From NCBI RefSeq assembly GCF_008297975.1, contig NZ_VLNY01000007.1, positions 1 to 64,000 of the forward strand: DNA of 64,000 nt. Reading direction: 5' to 3'. A program made the translations under genes and the position numbers. The notes beneath the pieces are model-generated. The model saw only the letters and a program-made list of their open reading frames with translations, did not search any database and was not told the origin of the DNA. The DNA comes from Antrihabitans cavernicola (lineage in GTDB: Bacteria > Actinomycetota > Actinomycetes > Mycobacteriales > Mycobacteriaceae). Shown piece by piece: positions 3,347 to 27,992 of this stretch (position 1 is the stretch's first letter; each line of letters begins with the position of its first letter).

Positions 3347-4300
3347 CTACGGGGTAAGGTCAGGCGTAATGACCGCAGCCGGGTAGCGCTTGGTCTTGTC
3401 CGTCTCAACCCGGTTCAGCGGGTTAGCGATCTGGAAGCCAACACGGAACACGACGCGAAGCGCCTTACTGTCCTGCTGCATCAGGTTCAGGATCACCTTG
3501 CCGTCAGCGTCGGAGATGACGCCCTCGCTGAACATGTCAAAGGTCACGTCCTGGCGAATGCCGACAACCACCTTGGACCAATCAGCCGCGACCAGAGTTG
3601 CAGCGTCTTCTTTCCATGCGCCGTTGCGAACCTCGTTGAGCGGCAGGCCATAGAGACCGGACGGCAGGCCAGCGGCAAGACCCTGCGCAGGCGTGTAGAT
3701 GCTCACACCCTGCGCGTTGCGCAGACCAACCATCTTCCACTGCAAACCGGGACGCGAGGCAAAGCCGTTGATAGCGAAGCCCTGCTTGCTCAGCTTCTCG
3801 CCCAGGAATGCCACGTTCTCGCCAATGTCGGCAGTCTCAGACTCCGCGACAGTGTTACCCATCGCGATAGCGCCGGGAACCAACGCGGTCGGCCAAGAGG
3901 CGGGCTTATCAACGCCGAAGATGCCTGCGCCGTCAACCTTCTTGCCGATTGCCTCAGTGAGCAGAGGCTTAATTTCATCCCACAGCGGGACGTTCGAGTC
4001 CGAGACCAGAGCGTCGGGAATCGGCACGATAACGGCAAGCTCTTCCGCCGTCATGGTCACGTTTTCCCAACCTGTCTTAGTGGTCTGCTTAAGACCCGTG
4101 TCACCGTCAACCCAGTAGGCATCCGGCAGCGACGCAAGCACCGGCTGCTTGGTCTTCTTCGTGCCCATTCGCACGTTTCGCGCCCGCTGAATGAGCGCCG
4201 ATTGTTCCGGCAGAGTCTCAATCACGTTCTTGACGATGGCCTCAGGAATCTGCGCGTCGGTAAGATCGGCACGACCCTGGACATTTGCAAAGCCACTCAT
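3347..4300 (-). CDS. Major capsid protein, HK97 fold
   Basis: A 317-residue protein following the scaffold gene. It has the layout of phi1026/HK97-type capsid subunits without a long delta domain: an N-terminal arm rich in Gln/Arg (SALIQRARNVRMGTKKTKQP), a spine-helix region, and a C-terminal P-domain with ALRVVFRVGFQIANPLNR, a motif often seen near the end of actinophage capsids. The high-frequency start is ATG at 4300. With a separate scaffold and MuF protein next to it, capsid assembly here would use scaffold rather than a fused delta domain. Confidence 0.9.
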   Translation of the reverse strand: MSGFANVQGRADLTDAQIPEAIVKNVIETLPEQSALIQRARNVRMGTKKTKQPVLASLPDAYWVDGDTGLKQTTKTGWENVTMTAEELAVIVPIPDALVSDSNVPLWDEIKPLLTEAIGKKVDGAGIFGVDKPASWPTALVPGAIAMGNTVAESETADIGENVAFLGEKLSKQGFAINGFASRPGLQWKMVGLRNAQGVSIYTPAQGLAAGLPSGLYGLPLNEVRNGAWKEDAATLVAADWSKVVVGIRQDVTFDMFSEGVISDADGKVILNLMQQDSKALRVVFRVGFQIANPLNRVETDKTKRYPAAVITPDLTP

Positions 4301-9033: not shown

Positions 9034-9357
9034 CTAGGTCTGCTGTGCGCATTCTGTGCCGTTAGGGCGGTAGCACTGTGCGGGGCATAGTGTTGTTCGT
9101 CCTGCACTGTTCAACCATTGGCTGTGCTTAGCGCAACCCGTGGGCAGGTGCATCATCGCTATTCGTAGTTGGTCCCTGAGTTGGGCATAGCCTGTCTGCT
9201 CCGCTACCCCTGGCAGTTCCTCATACCCGTGTAGCCGCATCCCCCGTAGGCGATCACTTGACCTTGGCGTGATCACTACCCATTGGTGGCGGTCTAGCTT
9301 GCGGCGTGCGATATGCGCATTGCCCTGTGCCTGCGATATGGCTAGTAGTGCCTGCAT
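9034..9357 (-). CDS. Hypothetical phage protein
   Basis: A 107-residue basic protein starting at the stop of the small membrane-protein gene (TGATG overlap). It has an Arg/His-rich first half (HIARRKLDRHQWVVITPRSS) and two Cys residues near the end. No domain was recognised. It is the last gene before the intergenic break that precedes the late operon, and the overlap with its neighbour supports translation. Confidence 0.5.
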   Translation of the reverse strand: MQALLAISQAQGNAHIARRKLDRHQWVVITPRSSDRLRGMRLHGYEELPGVAEQTGYAQLRDQLRIAMMHLPTGCAKHSQWLNSAGRTTLCPAQCYRPNGTECAQQT

Positions 9358-9560
9358 CAGCCCTTGCCTGCCTCAATGGGTCGCGCATAGCCAGTGACCG
9401 CAGCGTTCAGCTCGTCAGGCAGTGACGCAGTGTCGAGCACGTACACACAACCGAATACCCTTCGGCTCGCCCTTAAATGAGTTGACCTCACGTACAGGTA
9501 AACGAACGTCAGGTAAGAGCCGACAGCCCCACCCGCGATAAGCGTTGGGAATAGCTTCAT
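9357..9560 (-). CDS. Small membrane protein
   Basis: A 67-residue protein with one N-terminal hydrophobic segment (LFPTLIAGGAVGSYLTFVYLYV) followed by a basic and then mixed C-terminal part, so a single-pass inner membrane protein is likely. The ATG directly follows the stop of the Acb2-like gene (TAAATG). No family was recognised. It may simply travel with the anti-defence gene or act with it at the membrane; the sequence does not decide. Confidence 0.6.
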   Translation of the reverse strand: MKLFPTLIAGGAVGSYLTFVYLYVRSTHLRASRRVFGCVYVLDTASLPDELNAAVTGYARPIEAGKG

Positions 9561-9778
9561 TTAGCCCGCGCAATCGCCGCATTCGACCAGAACATTGCCT
9601 CTTCCAGCTTTGTCAGCGCTGTTGCTTTCTCGCGCCCATTGGGCAATGCGTCATCAAGCTTGAGGGCTAGAGCTTTGCAGGCTTCACGAATAGAGCCGTG
9701 CTCGCCCCGCTTCTCGTCGGTGCTTGCCGGGTGGAAATCAAACCTGTGTGCAATCTCTTCGTGCGCCATCATCACCAT
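9557..9778 (-). CDS. Acb2/Tad1-type cyclic-nucleotide sponge (anti-CBASS / anti-Thoeris candidate)
   Basis: A 73-residue helical protein whose sequence matches the small Acb2/Tad1 hairpin family (DUF7681). The segments HRFDFHPASTDEK, IREACKALALKLDDALPNG and REKATALTKLEEAMFWSNAAI reproduce the family layout: an N-terminal arm, a long helix, then the highly conserved ALTKLEEA-W-NAAIAR helix at the C-terminus. In studied phages, Acb2 binds cyclic di- and trinucleotides made by CBASS cyclases and so blocks effector activation; the related Tad1 binds Thoeris signals. The start codon overlaps the end of the HNH gene. I am confident of the family; the ligand here is unknown. Confidence 0.85.
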   Translation of the reverse strand: MVMMAHEEIAHRFDFHPASTDEKRGEHGSIREACKALALKLDDALPNGREKATALTKLEEAMFWSNAAIARAK

Positions 9779-10056
9779 TGCCTTGTCGTTGGTAGTTGGT
9801 CTATCCGCTCAGGTGGCCTGTTCCCGCGCGAGCTATTGCAGGACCTATGTGCCGCCCGCAGTTCCCCCAGTAGGTGACCGCCCTTTGAGCGCGGTATTAC
9901 GTGGTCCGCAGTCCATGACATCGGGTCATTGGATGGCAGGTCTACGTCTATCCATTTACCGCAGAGCCAGCATGTTCGTGCGTTTTGCCGCAGCCGGTTC
10001 TTTGCCCGCCTGTACGCCCGGTGATCGAGGCCGCTTCGCTTAGTGCGTGGGGGCAT
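9772..10056 (-). CDS. HNH endonuclease
   Basis: A 94-residue HNH nuclease. A first Cys pair (CWLCGKWI) is followed by WTADHVIPRSKGG, the core HNH motif with the metal-binding DH, and a closing AHRSCNSSRG. HNH proteins near terminase genes assist the packaging endonuclease in HK97-like phages, and this copy lies in the same transcription direction a few genes before the terminase. A possible 18-codon open frame precedes it and overlaps the start; it may only couple translation. Confidence 0.88.
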   Translation of the reverse strand: MPPRTKRSGLDHRAYRRAKNRLRQNARTCWLCGKWIDVDLPSNDPMSWTADHVIPRSKGGHLLGELRAAHRSCNSSRGNRPPERIDQLPTTRQW

Positions 10057-10527: not shown

Positions 10528-11640
10528 TTAGACCAGAGACATACGGCTGATTTCGCCGTTCTTGAGCAAGTACGCGAGTCCGCCGCGCTTAGATTCGCCA
10601 CCGTGCGCACCCCGATACCAATCAGAGCCACAGTCGTAGGTAGGCGAAGCAACGCGAACACGGTCCCGTGTGGTTTCCAATTCCCACCTGTGCCCGTGCC
10701 CGTGCTGCAGCACCTGAGCGGACGCAGCGGGTTGATTACCAAATGCCTGTTCTTGCCACCACGCCATGCCCTTGCCAATGCGCCATTGGTGACCATGAAC
10801 GACAGTGACCAGAGACGAACCAACCTCGTTGGTCATATCGGGACACCATTTATCCGGCGTGCGAACCTCAACATGCCCGTAAGCGGCTTTATTGATTTCG
10901 AGGGCGTCAGCTACCGCAATAGCCGATTCAGTCGCCCAGCCGTCACCGGGATATGTGTTCTGCTCGCGCTGGGCTTCATCATGGTTGCCGTTAACAACGT
11001 CCAGGTACACGCGGTCAGTCAGTGGTGCGAACGCCTCTACTGTGTGCAGCATGAGGCGCCGCAAAATGCGGAACTGCTCAGTGATTGTTTCCTGAGTCAG
11101 CCACAGGTTCTTACTGCTCTGCGATACGACGCCTTCTAGGCAGTCACCCGGCATCGAAATCTGGATTCCCTCAATGCCGTGCCGCTTGAGGTCTGCGAAC
11201 TCTTCCGTGGCCTGTTGGACGCTATCTAGGTAGCGTTCGATGATTTCGGCAGTCGAGCCGTCACGGGAGCGTTTACCGATTTGCTGATCGCCAGCCTGAA
11301 ACACGAACCAGTGCGGACCGGTGGAACCGTCAGCGACACGCTTGGGCGCGGCCTTGATTCGCTCAATTAAAGGCTCAACGCTTGATTCGCGCTTTGCAAT
11401 GAGCTTGTACCTGTATGTCGTGGCCTGTGTGCCGTCAGCTTTCCAACGGGTGTAAACGGACGGGGGCGCTGCGAATCCAACCTGAGAGGGATCATGCCCA
11501 CACGATTCAAGAATTGCGCCGTAGTCAGACGCGTCGTGCGGTCCCTCAATCAGGGCCGCTAGCGCTCGCCCGTCCTGCTCATCGGGTTCTTGTGGTTGCT
11601 GCGCAGGTTCGCCCCTCAGTAAGTCAGCCAACGCGCCCAC
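10528..11640 (-). CDS. Calcineurin-type metallophosphoesterase
   Basis: A 370-residue protein with metallophosphoesterase motifs in order: AGDQQIGK, MPGDCLEG, NGNHDE (the GNH[DE] motif), VVHGHQW and a final HGHGHR. These His/Asp/Asn residues bind two metals. The N-terminal ~100 residues are Gln/Glu/Pro-rich and then include a region with YTRWKADGTQATTYRY that may bind DNA or substrate. Similar proteins in actinophages are annotated as phosphoesterases of the Mre11/SbcD type and lie near replication genes. GTG start at 11640 follows AGGGG. Confidence 0.85.
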   Translation of the reverse strand: MGALADLLRGEPAQQPQEPDEQDGRALAALIEGPHDASDYGAILESCGHDPSQVGFAAPPSVYTRWKADGTQATTYRYKLIAKRESSVEPLIERIKAAPKRVADGSTGPHWFVFQAGDQQIGKRSRDGSTAEIIERYLDSVQQATEEFADLKRHGIEGIQISMPGDCLEGVVSQSSKNLWLTQETITEQFRILRRLMLHTVEAFAPLTDRVYLDVVNGNHDEAQREQNTYPGDGWATESAIAVADALEINKAAYGHVEVRTPDKWCPDMTNEVGSSLVTVVHGHQWRIGKGMAWWQEQAFGNQPAASAQVLQHGHGHRWELETTRDRVRVASPTYDCGSDWYRGAHGGESKRGGLAYLLKNGEISRMSLV

Positions 11641-12161: not shown

Positions 12162-12205
12162 CGCGAGAATCCCTCTAACAGTGTCGATTTGGTCAATTTG
12201 AATTG

Positions 12206-12280
12206 CGGGGACTGCTGGACTCGAACCAACAACCTGCGGGTTTGGAATCCGCCGCTCTACCCATTTTGAGCTAAGCCCCA
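12206..12280 (-). tRNA. Phage-borne tRNA-Trp (CCA anticodon)
   Basis: On the minus strand the sequence folds as a tRNA: acceptor TGGGGCT with AGTCCCC (one mismatch at the end pair and one G-T), TA, D-arm GCTC..GAGC, anticodon arm GCGGA-TTCCAAA-CCCGC with anticodon CCA, and T-arm GTTGG-TTCGAGT-CCAGC. CCA is not encoded. The mismatches at pair 1-72 and the base of the anticodon stem are unusual, so it may be a diverged but working phage tRNA. It sits between the excisionase-type HTH gene and nrdH in the early operon. Confidence 0.8.
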
Positions 12281-12395: not shown

Positions 12396-12674
12396 TCAAG
12401 CACAAAACAAAGGTAACTGATCCTCATTTCGAGCCAGTTTCTTATGACCACGCCCAGGACCGGCCAGATAGCGCCGGTTCTGATTCTGCAACTCCGTCGC
12501 CTGCTGCCTACGCTTAGCCTCTTTGCGCGCCTCACGCAATGAGTCCTTGTCGTAGTACCACTTGCCGCGTTTCGTGCCCACCTTGACGATTCCAGCCTTG
12601 CGCCACCTGTAGAGGGTGACGCGCGACCTGCCGACGAACCGCATTGCGTCCCACTCGTCCAGCCAAACCGTCAA
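12396..12674 (-). CDS. MerR/excisionase-type helix-turn-helix protein
   Basis: A 92-residue protein with WDAMRFVGRSRVTLYRWRKAG, an HTH_17-like winged helix, then GTKRGKWYYDKDSLREA (wing and second helix) and a basic tail (KEAKRRQQA, GRGHKKLAR). Such proteins act as excisionases, recombination directionality factors or small regulators. It starts at TTG overlapping the methyltransferase stop. Because another excisionase-like gene lies beside the repressor, this one may instead regulate the operon. Confidence 0.7.
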   Translation of the reverse strand: MTVWLDEWDAMRFVGRSRVTLYRWRKAGIVKVGTKRGKWYYDKDSLREARKEAKRRQQATELQNQNRRYLAGPGRGHKKLARNEDQLPLFCA

Positions 12675-13366
12675 CGGGCTAGCGCGAACAAACTTGACGC
12701 GGGCGCCATGCCCGAAAGCAACTGCCGCCCAATGTGCTCCGTGTACGCGGGCGGAATAGCTTCGGATAGTTCGTTCATTGTCATTTTATGACCGATACCC
12801 ATTGCCTCATAAGCAAGACTCTTCTTGTCGTAGCCGGGAAAATCAGCGCCCGTCTCGCGCCAAAACTTGCTACTCCGACAACGGACGTGACCACCGTAGA
12901 CGCCGATTGTCGGCAAACTGTGTTCGCACAGCCTCGGGGCCGTGATTGGTAGGCTCGATTCAAACTGTCGGTGCCTGCGCAACCCGAAACCTTGCGCATT
13001 GAGGGCAAACATTGAGCCACACAGAACGATTGATCCGGCCATCGGCGCTCCGACGACGTTCTCTATAACCCACGGCAAACCCAACTTAGTCAACAACTCG
13101 CGCGTTGGTTCGATCAACTCCGGATGCGCCTTGGCGTCAGGCATATGCTTCATAGCGCTGTAAGCTTGGCAAGGTGGACTAGCATGTACCGCGTCGAATC
13201 TTGTCCAGTTCCAGCGCAGAAAGTCCAACGCGTCCGCTTGGTGAAACTCGAACGGAGAGTTTGGCTGCGGGATAATATCCACCCCGATAACTTCAAATCC
13301 CGCGCGGTCGTACCCCTCTGCCGCGCCGCCAGCGCAACAAAATAGGTCAAGTAATTTCGGCTTCAA
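12671..13366 (-). CDS. DNA cytosine-5 methyltransferase
   Basis: A 231-residue C5-MTase. Motif I DLFCCAGGAAEGYDRAGF binds S-adenosylmethionine, motif IV ASPPCQAYS holds the catalytic Cys66, motif VI has ENV at 102-104, motif VIII is recognisable as RRHRQFE, and the end (NELSEAIPPAYTEHIG) is motif X. TTG at 13366 is chosen because AAGGGG lies upstream at correct spacing. No restriction enzyme gene accompanies it, so it is probably an orphan methylase that protects phage DNA from host restriction. The target-recognition region is short (about 40-50 residues). Confidence 0.9.
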   Translation of the reverse strand: MKPKLLDLFCCAGGAAEGYDRAGFEVIGVDIIPQPNSPFEFHQADALDFLRWNWTRFDAVHASPPCQAYSAMKHMPDAKAHPELIEPTRELLTKLGLPWVIENVVGAPMAGSIVLCGSMFALNAQGFGLRRHRQFESSLPITAPRLCEHSLPTIGVYGGHVRCRSSKFWRETGADFPGYDKKSLAYEAMGIGHKMTMNELSEAIPPAYTEHIGRQLLSGMAPASSLFALAR

Positions 13367-13376
13367 TAGCTTCCCC

Positions 13377-13892
13377 TTAGAGAGATAGTGCGTACTGGTT
13401 TGGGTCATCCACCCTCGAACGCTCCACAATCGGGCGCTCCAAGAACACGTCTAGCTCAGGCCAATTCTTCCGGTTCGTGTTCCGCACCGAACGAATATCA
13501 TCGAGCATCCCGTCCGGCGCATTCCCGCCAGCCCGTAGCCAATCGGTCAACAGTTTGGTCACGTCACGCACAGCCCGCGTGTCGTCATAGAGCACGCCGC
13601 GCGCTACACCATTGACCCGCCAAACCCAACCGCGATACTGCCCACGCAAGCCCAGCGTGTCAGCCCATCCGATCAGTGCCGCAACCTCAGCGTCCGCCGC
13701 GTCCATCGCATCAAGATTGAACGGAGGCTTAGACTTTGGCTTCGCGCCCGTGGACACTTCCCGCCCGGTTTCCTGCCGTTCGCCGTCGCCCTGAGCCGCC
13801 CCGTCTTGCGGCTTAGCCCTCGCGAACATTTGCGCCCGCAAGAACTCCACCGCATCCCACGTATCGGAAATCAGCTCTTCAAGTTCGGTCAA
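13377..13892 (-). CDS. Hypothetical phage protein
   Basis: A 171-residue protein with a helical N-terminus (MTELEELISDTWDAVEFLRA), a Gly/Lys/Pro-rich linker at about 25-55 and a conserved-looking second half (GWVWRVNGVARGVLYDDTRA, then VTKLLTDWLRAGG and KNWPELDVFLERP). Similar proteins occur in the replication regions of actinophages without known function. It overlaps the preceding gene by four bases and is followed by the methyltransferase. Confidence 0.6.
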   Translation of the reverse strand: MTELEELISDTWDAVEFLRAQMFARAKPQDGAAQGDGERQETGREVSTGAKPKSKPPFNLDAMDAADAEVAALIGWADTLGLRGQYRGWVWRVNGVARGVLYDDTRAVRDVTKLLTDWLRAGGNAPDGMLDDIRSVRNTNRKNWPELDVFLERPIVERSRVDDPNQYALSL

Positions 13893-19824: not shown

Positions 19825-20222
19825 GCGCCACCCTTTCCTGAAAGTTGCAGCTCTGCACGCAGATTCGCCGATCGCGTCTGCAATGCATCCTTTTCCCGGT
19901 CCAAGGACCGGCTCACGTCCTGCGAATACTTGAACGCGGCGTCTGCAATTTGGTACGCCTCACGCTCAAGCCCAGTCGCCAAGAACGCCCGCGCCTCGCG
20001 CTCACCAGCGGTCAACTTGCGCCCGTCATCTTCAACCGGAACCGCAAGCAACGCTTTAGCTTTCGCCGTGTTGTAGCGCTCTTCCGCGACCACAAGCGCG
20101 TTGCGCTCACGGCCCATTGCCAGCGGCCCGCGATAGATGGCAACCTCAATCTCCATCAGCCGCGAAGTAATGTACGCAAGCGAGTCTTCCGGCTCGATAA
20201 CGTAGTCGGCGTCTGCGCCCAT
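19821..20222 (-). CDS. Hypothetical coiled-coil phage protein
   Basis: A 133-residue, highly helical protein with heptad-like charged sequence (LMEIEVAIYRGPLAMGRERN, SRSLDREKDALQTRSANLRA). It directly follows the ERF annealing protein, a place where small helical recombination partners are often found. No nuclease or DNA-binding motif is visible. A structural or accessory role in annealing is possible. Confidence 0.55.
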   Translation of the reverse strand: MGADADYVIEPEDSLAYITSRLMEIEVAIYRGPLAMGRERNALVVAEERYNTAKAKALLAVPVEDDGRKLTAGEREARAFLATGLEREAYQIADAAFKYSQDVSRSLDREKDALQTRSANLRAELQLSGKGGA

Positions 20223-20852
20223 CTAGGCCCCCTTGATCATGTCGATTGCCCCGCGAAGAACGGCAACGTCCGTGCATTCGGAAATCTTGCCCACGCCGCC
20301 AACGGCTTTGAACTGCTCCGTGCCCTCAGCGGGCGTAAGGCCCTTCACCTGGCACAGCTCGACCAACTGATTCCGCAAACCCACGAACTCCGGCACTTGC
20401 TCGTCATAGCTCGCATCAGGGTCCGGCTCATCAGTCGGCAGCATCAACGCCTGCAACAGCGCGGTACGCAAGGCAACGCTCATTGCCTTAGCCGTACCCT
20501 TGTCCGCCGAATCGTTGCCCTCAGCGGCAACAACCGCAGTCACGGAATCGCCAGCGGGACCAATGAACTGGTACTCAACCAGCAACCGCACAGACGTTGC
20601 AGGCGTTGCGTTCCGGCCAATCGTGACCGGCAGATAGTCAACCGTCAACACACGCGGGATGACCACAACGCCGTGCTCGTTGAGTGCCGCATGGACCGCA
20701 TTCACAACCGCGTCGATTCCGCGAAAGTTGAACTTTTGCCCTTGGTTGAAGTCGTCTTTGCGTACGGCGCCAACCGCCTTCGAAACCCGGTTTAGCGCTT
20801 CATATACGGCTGGAATTGCGTTGTCAGGCAAGCGGATCACCGTATCGCGCAT
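20223..20852 (-). CDS. erf: ERF-family single-strand annealing protein
   Basis: A 209-residue protein of the ERF superfamily. The signature KFNFRGIDAVVNAVHAALNE followed by GVVVIP is diagnostic; later the segment DKGTAKAMSVALRTALLQAL gives the second conserved block. ERF proteins form rings on single-stranded DNA and anneal complementary strands in phage recombination, working with the exonuclease encoded two genes upstream. ATG 20852 overlaps the previous gene by 28 bases; GTG starts at 20885 or 20840 are also possible. Confidence 0.9.
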   Translation of the reverse strand: MRDTVIRLPDNAIPAVYEALNRVSKAVGAVRKDDFNQGQKFNFRGIDAVVNAVHAALNEHGVVVIPRVLTVDYLPVTIGRNATPATSVRLLVEYQFIGPAGDSVTAVVAAEGNDSADKGTAKAMSVALRTALLQALMLPTDEPDPDASYDEQVPEFVGLRNQLVELCQVKGLTPAEGTEQFKAVGGVGKISECTDVAVLRGAIDMIKGA

Positions 20853-26888: not shown

Positions 26889-27992
26889 ATGGGATGGGCG
26901 GAAGCGTTACCGTCCGGAAAGTATCGGGCGCTCTACCGCGATGGCGACGGACGCAAGCGGTCCGCAGGGACGTACACGCACAAACGTGAGGCAGTACGGA
27001 AAGCGAACGCCGCCGAAGAATCGGAACGCGATACACCAACGCCCAGCGAAGCCCGAAAGATCACGTGGGGTGAATGGGAACCACGTTGGCAAAGCTCCCG
27101 CAGAGTAGCGAAGTCCACCGCGCGATCAGACGACGGACGAATACGCGACCACTTGCGCCCGCACTGGTCGAATAAGCCGCTAAATTCGATCACGAAAGAA
27201 TCGGTAGAGGCGTGGGTTGCTGAGCTGACAGATAAGCAATTGGCGCCCTCTACTGTCGCCAAGTGCTATTTCCTCCTGAGCGCGTCACTCAAGGGCGCCA
27301 ACGGCGCCCGCCTGATCGCCTACAACCCATGCAAGGGCGTAACGCTGCCCAAGCCCGGCCCAATGCCGGAACGGTTTCTAGAGACGGAAGAGTTTCGGGC
27401 AATTCAATGCTCGCTTGACGACTTCGACAGGTTCGCCACCGACGTACTCATTGGGACCGGCGCCCGACTGGGGGAAGCGTTGGGATTGCATCTTGAACAC
27501 GTATTCCCTGAGCGCAAGCTAGTGCGAATCGAATGGGCGTACGACCCGGTTGCCCGTGTGATGAAACCGCCGAAGGACTATGAGCGGCGCGACATACCAA
27601 TTGGCTCCACCCTGGCGGGGCAACTCGCAGAGCTGATTAAGCGCAACGGTTACGGGAGTCCGGCGCCCGTTGAGTATCCGCGTGGGGCGCGTTTGCACAG
27701 TGGCCTAGTGCTCGCTCACGTCAACGGCAAACCTCCGGACAGTAGCAACCTGAGGCACCGGTTCGAGGCGTCCACGCGGATCGCCTACACAGGCAAGCGC
27801 GGCGCACGCAAACCCGTGGGGCATGTACGGCTGCATGACTTGCGGCACACGTACGCCAGCCGCCTACTCCGCGCGGGAGTGTCACTCGCGGAGGTCAAGG
27901 AACTCATGGGGCACGCGTCGATTACAACGACGATGCGATACGCCCACCTTGCCCAATCGAATTGGGACAACGTGCGAAAAGCGTTGGGTTAG
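26889..27992 (+). CDS. int: Tyrosine-family integrase
   Basis: A 367-residue integrase. The N-terminal ~60 residues form an arm-type DNA-binding domain (SGKYRALYRDGDGRKRSAGT); residues ~62-155 are the SAM-like core-binding domain; the catalytic domain has Arg193 (TGARLGEAL), Lys in PPKDYERRD near 229, HDLRHTYA with His316 and Arg319, His342 (MGHASI) and nucleophile Tyr351 (YAHL). It is adjacent to the attachment site 180 bases downstream, as expected. It would insert the phage into the tRNA-Lys gene. Confidence 0.95.
   Translation: MGWAEALPSGKYRALYRDGDGRKRSAGTYTHKREAVRKANAAEESERDTPTPSEARKITWGEWEPRWQSSRRVAKSTARSDDGRIRDHLRPHWSNKPLNSITKESVEAWVAELTDKQLAPSTVAKCYFLLSASLKGANGARLIAYNPCKGVTLPKPGPMPERFLETEEFRAIQCSLDDFDRFATDVLIGTGARLGEALGLHLEHVFPERKLVRIEWAYDPVARVMKPPKDYERRDIPIGSTLAGQLAELIKRNGYGSPAPVEYPRGARLHSGLVLAHVNGKPPDSSNLRHRFEASTRIAYTGKRGARKPVGHVRLHDLRHTYASRLLRAGVSLAEVKELMGHASITTTMRYAHLAQSNWDNVRKALG

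Follow-up and report, generated by a model that had tools for sequence, protein, structure and literature searches.

An Acb2/Tad1 hairpin family protein, probably a sponge for cyclic nucleotide signals, in a prophage of Antrihabitans cavernicola

The gene and its surroundings

The window is a stretch of 64,000 nucleotides from Antrihabitans cavernicola (positions 1 to 64,000 of contig NZ_VLNY01000007.1, assembly GCF_008297975.1), and it opens within a tailed-phage prophage. The features at and around the gene of interest are as follows.

1 to 27992, no strand assigned: prophage of a tailed phage, with terminase, tail, head, protease, portal, repressor and integrase genes
9357 to 9560, minus: small protein of 67 aa with one hydrophobic N-terminal segment, following the candidate sponge gene with a 4-base overlap
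9557 to 9778, minus: Acb2-type hairpin gene, the candidate sponge gene, 73 aa as listed and 71 aa from the ATG at 9772
9566 to 9736, minus: Acb2_Tad1_hairpin domain, residues 15-71 (PF24729 genome search, 75.3 bits)
9611 to 9613, minus: codon of T56, aligned with T68 of T4 Acb2
9686 to 9688, minus: codon of R31, aligned with K23 of T4 Acb2
9734 to 9736, minus: codon of F15, aligned with Y8 of T4 Acb2
9772 to 10056, minus: HNH endonuclease gene directly upstream of the candidate sponge gene (PF01844, E = 9.4e-07; phrog_338, E = 4.9e-25)
10528 to 11640: exonuclease-like large gene (PHROG match)
26889 to 27992: integrase gene (PF00589), the open reading frame ending at 27992

The frame at 9557 to 9778 runs uninterrupted for 73 codons on the minus strand, and its product contains the REKATALTKLEEAMFWSNAAI block to which the sequence-only reading had drawn attention; the open reading frame is thereby confirmed. 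Compared with the DNA of a relative in Rhodococcus zopfii, it shows 12, 12 and 38 differences at the first, second and third codon positions, respectively, over 65 codons, a concentration at third positions that is expected of a real gene. The start is likely the ATG at 9772, the third codon of the frame, which would yield a protein of 71 aa. By inspection, this ATG and the stop codon of the HNH gene before it overlap in TGATG, and an AAGG lies 8 nt upstream of the ATG.

A prophage setting had been proposed for the gene, and the presence of small and large terminase, portal, head protease, head and tail, repressor and integrase genes bears this out. The gene is the third open reading frame downstream of the exonuclease-like gene, with a 55-codon frame and the HNH gene in between. 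Further downstream lie the small and large terminase, portal, head protease, major head and major tail genes, and towards the other end of the prophage are helicase, exonuclease and repressor genes, followed by the integrase. Since the window begins at the contig start, the prophage is cut. In IMG/VR, a viral region of 27,992 bases contains the gene in identical form and at coordinates equal to those in the window, and a megablast search with 10.5 kb of the prophage against 50,697 phage records found no near-identical phage.

Other genes of the prophage can be read in terms of host defence. An RNA ligase (PF09414; 15833-16423, minus strand) and a tRNA-Trp (12205-12280, minus strand) could serve as a pair in repairing or replacing tRNAs under attack by tRNA-cutting defences, and a DNA methyltransferase-like gene (12671-13429, minus strand), with a match to phrog_363 (E = 2.2e-35) and no Pfam match at 0.001, possibly guards against restriction. 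A 316-aa open reading frame at 19845-20795 lies on the plus strand, opposite to most prophage genes; it drew no match from PHROG, Pfam or PADLOC at the thresholds applied and is a candidate cargo gene.

The small protein encoded at 9357-9560 had been suggested to be a membrane protein forming a module with the hairpin protein, a proposal that we reject for want of support. It has no match in Pfam, PHROG, NCBIfam or PADLOC and no relative among the phage records. Neighbors of hairpin gene relatives were collected from 64 of 83 loci, of which 51 gave a downstream and 62 an upstream open reading frame; these picks were made mechanically, and not all of them are real genes (the upstream pick at locus L019, for example, is not). 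None of the 51 downstream and 62 upstream neighbors resembles the small protein. Its best 19-residue hydropathy is 1.45, and a single-sequence model (pLDDT, 70.6) places a helix at residues 4-45. Hydropathy over 19 residues exceeds 1.6 in 12 of the 51 downstream neighbors, yet these are unrelated to it.

Family membership and comparison with Acb2 and Tad1

The product of the 9557-9778 frame is, by sequence, a member of the Acb2/Tad1 hairpin family, as the sequence-only reading had proposed. A search against the DUF7681/Acb2 profile had been named there as the check to make; with PF24729, for which we take DUF7681 to be the former name, the match is significant (76 bits, E = 2.6e-21, against a cut-off of 27 bits), spanning residues 15-71 of the protein and positions 2-58 of the 58 in the profile. 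T4 Acb2 (Vs.4, from NC_000866), an established sponge, was scored against the same model as a control and reached 71.4 bits. The protein also matches phrog_1454 strongly over residues 3-72 (E = 6.6e-32), a family to which PHROGs v4 assigns no function, and NCBIfam and PADLOC searches returned no match.

Two sets of sequences were used for direct comparison: a 12-row profile built from the window protein together with 11 relatives, and a larger, 46-row alignment of the window protein with 45 relatives chosen from 163 loci. The closest solved chain is Acb2 homolog 43 (9ptq), at E = 6e-5 with the single sequence and 4.4e-9 with the 12-row profile. It shares the LP-GREK and TKLEEAMF blocks with the window protein, but the match is limited to the hairpin (residues 14-60 of the 76 in the chain). 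A literature search on Acb2 homologs found no paper on this one.

Resemblance to the classic Acb2 proteins is fainter. T4 Acb2 is of similar size (88 aa versus 73 aa), and its aromatic, basic and threonine positions align with those of the window protein in weak alignments; pairwise similarity is low, and a 20-residue gap falls opposite T4 in the hairpin. At the N terminus, the KGY block of T4 and PaP2 Acb2 is replaced by FHPAST. In hhalign, the 46-row alignment against T4 Acb2 scored 24.5 (probability, 37.6; single-comparison E = 3.4e-4), compared with a maximum of 20.0 among 200 shuffles of T4 Acb2, and the 12-row profile gave a probability of 22. With hmmsearch, T4 Acb2 totaled 11.3 bits against the 46-row alignment, above all 5000 shuffled T4 sequences (4569 of which were reported with scores), but two weak pieces, of 2.1 and 7.4 bits, make up this total, and the better of them falls below a single piece of 8.1 bits in one of the shuffles. 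As these direct comparisons are weak, kinship of the window protein to classic Acb2 rests on the Pfam model, which both proteins match.

The predicted fold is consistent with Acb2. An AlphaFold single-chain model (mean pLDDT, 84.8) places helices at residues 6-12, 21-44 and 49-71 and contains no strand, giving a short N-terminal helix and two long ones. This fits the published Acb2 layout, described as a short N-terminal helix followed by two long antiparallel helices (PMC12043709), and, judging from the hairpin layout, the two long helices of the window protein would likewise pack antiparallel.

We presume that a lysine, K23 in T4 Acb2 and K26 in PaP2 Acb2, contacts the ligand. The window protein has F and R where T4 Acb2 has Y and K. 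In the 46-row alignment, a chosen set whose rows are not independent because they were picked by hand and some may come from the same prophage (those of R. zopfii and locus L017 look alike), F13, H16, R31, P46, R49, T56, E59 and W64 are each present in 46 of 46 rows. At residue 15, phenylalanine occupies 31 of these rows and tyrosine the other 15; in the smaller profile, 11 of the 12 rows are aromatic there, the actinophage relative Ibantik having S. Equivalence of residue 15, R31 and T56 to Y8, K23 and T68 of T4 is drawn from the weak alignments described above. T4 Acb2 Y8A is reported to be binding deficient and T68M to have lowered affinity (PMC12657230). According to the same report, T4 Acb2 sets off cell death in E. 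coli carrying a Panoptes system, whose signal is 2',3'-c-di-AMP, and the Y8A mutant fails to do so.

An alternative is that the protein is a Tad1-like anti-Thoeris sponge that has dispensed with the beta-sheet domain and binds cyclic ADP-ribose signals instead of, or besides, cyclic oligonucleotides. Residues 47-111 of Tad1 from a Clostridium botulinum prophage (7uav, 8smd) align with residues 9-69 of the window protein at E = 0.02 with the single sequence and 0.0018 with the 12-row profile. In common are F15, E22, H27, G28 and I30, all in the N-terminal half, and an RE..A.LT..EEA..W.N block. Of six Tad1 sequences searched with the profile, five matched at E = 0.0017 to 0.002 and the sixth at 0.62, a weak similarity to the C-terminal part of Tad1. 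The same profile searched against the PDB to E = 10 listed neither T4 Acb2 (7uq2) nor PaP2 Acb2 (8h2j), and classic Acb2 was likewise absent from the hits listed for the single sequence. Potential targets for such a protein occur in the host family, with a ThsB TIR domain in 53 of 401 genomes.

Other aspects of Tad1 speak against this alternative. An F and an N of Tad1, which we take to be gcADPR contact residues, face D42 and K51 of the window protein in the HMMER alignment, by inspection. The window protein is 73 aa long with no strand in its model, whereas Tad1 is described as having a four-stranded N-terminal sheet and a gcADPR pocket that conserved loops of one protomer enclose together with helices of another (PMC12043709). 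Given the Tad1-like N-terminal half, a cyclic ADP-ribose ligand is conceivable, but we regard this alternative as quite improbable.

Relatives, hosts and gene contexts

A tblastn search found relatives in 310 of the 50,697 phage records (E up to 0.01), mostly from actinobacterial hosts: 184 from phages of Mycobacterium, 59 of Paenibacillus, 40 of Gordonia and 10 of Streptomyces, with others making up the rest. Among 60 of these records that were listed, 59 carry the annotation "hypothetical protein" and one is unannotated. A looser search reached 384 phage records, and among 60 listed at even steps, two name the product a "cyclic nucleotide sequestering protein," namely, StellaBean gp101 and Barebow gp4. 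The StellaBean, Barebow and BigBubba copies, from phages of Mycobacterium and Curtobacterium, all match PF24729; those of StellaBean and BigBubba are 46% identical to the window protein, and that of Barebow resembles it only at residues 46-69. One paper describes mycobacteriophages Xandras (gp101) and BigBubba (gp102) as carrying a cyclic nucleotide sequestering gene, the latter product being called a CBASS antagonist (PMC11953737), although the record of BigBubba gp102 still reads "hypothetical protein." Nothing besides that paper emerged from a literature search on DUF7681, the Pfam family and the sequestering protein, and a search on Acb2 in Rhodococcus found no relevant paper.

Beyond the phage records, genome loci encode relatives in R. 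zopfii (75% identity), a Rhodococcus metagenome-assembled genome (62%) and Herbidospora cretacea (57%), and relatives are found on five records of a plasmid collection, Rhodococcus, Nocardia and Prescottella among them. In IMG/VR, 299 of 325 pattern-matched stretches encode relatives, as do 202 of 228 with a Paenibacillus phage query. PF24729 occurs in 7 of 401 genomes of the host family and in one of four of the genus, the window's own genome being counted in both. A 16S search found no copy in the window's own genome and one in that of R. zopfii. The sequence-only reading had held that a rhodococcal version would widen the known host range. This does not stand, since relatives are already present in Rhodococcus and in many actinophages, some of them annotated, and a rhodococcal copy would add nothing to the known range. 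One report describes Acb2 as fairly rare and confined to particular groups of phages (PMC11722364), which does not hold for the hairpin family at large. The window copy is a sound but unremarkable member of a family that is already frequent in phages of mycobacteria and of similar bacteria.

Some of the relatives are of note in themselves. MalagasyRose gp5 (L013:922-1509; 195 aa) and a Henu3 protein (L014:809-1171; 120 aa) join the hairpin domain to a long extension. On the Rhodococcus plasmid record NZ_CP090444.1, a 61% identical copy (L190:3971-4213) adjoins a glutaredoxin gene, and phage head genes are present; the record is probably a phage-plasmid.

The contexts of the relatives bear on whether the hairpin might have been repurposed in actinophages, for example, as a small structural or lysis-timing protein that has lost nucleotide signal binding. 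Several relatives lie within a lysis cassette. In prophi91-3, a prophage of Mycobacterium abscessus, genes annotated as lysin A and lysin B precede the Acb2-type gene (L006:2429-2704) and a holin gene follows it, and PHROGs agree for these three neighbors. Among loci picked for scanning because of their similar appearance, a PHROG endolysin lies upstream of the Acb2-type gene in 6 of 6 (L017, L032, L033, L038, L039 and L048) and a PHROG holin downstream in 4 of 4 (L032, L038, L039 and L004), both flanks being confirmed in L032, L038 and L039, where the Acb2-type gene lies around 4001-4204. Such a position between endolysin and holin may result in late expression. In the window, Pfam and PHROG scans of the neighbors revealed no lysis gene beside the hairpin gene.

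Other relatives follow ThyX, or thymidylate synthase and ribonucleotide reductase genes, and still others lie beside tRNAs, adjoin the portal gene or are near the terminase. Proximity to portal and terminase genes would suit a structural role, but the position of the gene varies between phages, as one would expect if it were a transferable anti-defence gene and not a component of the virion structure. Moreover, in all 46 rows of the hand-chosen alignment, residues at the positions matched to the reported Acb2 sites are either unchanged or conservatively substituted. Repurposing with loss of signal binding is, on this evidence, very improbable.

Proposed function and its meaning for actinophages

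We consider it very probable, on the strength of the family match and the aligned residues, that the window protein, a member of the Acb2/Tad1 hairpin family, acts as a small, non-enzymatic oligomeric sponge and sequesters cyclic oligonucleotide alarm signals. The protein would be made during phage growth, each chain forming a short helix at its N terminus and then a long hairpin of two helices. Chains may assemble into an oligomer, presumably a hexamer as in Acb2 and Tad1, with putative inter-chain pockets lined by the aromatic residue 15, R31 and T56. These pockets would trap cyclic dinucleotides, cyclic trinucleotides or both, as produced by the CBASS-type cyclases of hosts encountered by the phage, and with the signal trapped, the suicide effectors of the host would stay off.

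Potential targets of a sponge exist in the host family, where a SMODS cyclase domain is found in 49 of the 401 genomes, alongside the ThsB TIR domains counted above. The lysogen's own genome has no SMODS and no ThsB TIR match, and thus a matching defence was not found in the lysogen itself. This search covered SMODS, ThsB TIR and SAVED. The SAVED model had no match in the lysogen and none in the control genomes, making its absence uninformative.

The actinophage clade is Tad1-like in its N-terminal half and Acb2-like in architecture. It is conceivable, though in our judgment rather unlikely, that the clade represents a distinct, hairpin-only intermediate between Acb2 and Tad1, tuned to a nucleotide signal peculiar to actinobacterial hosts and placed, in some phages, within the lysis cassette so as to block the alarm late, shortly ahead of planned lysis.

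Taken alone, the window copy amounts to routine annotation. What the comparison offers more broadly is support for viewing a common "hypothetical protein" of mycobacteriophages and of Gordonia and Paenibacillus phages as an anti-defence sponge. If the actinophage proteins are indeed sponges, immunity based on nucleotide signals would be a pressure that actinophages face.
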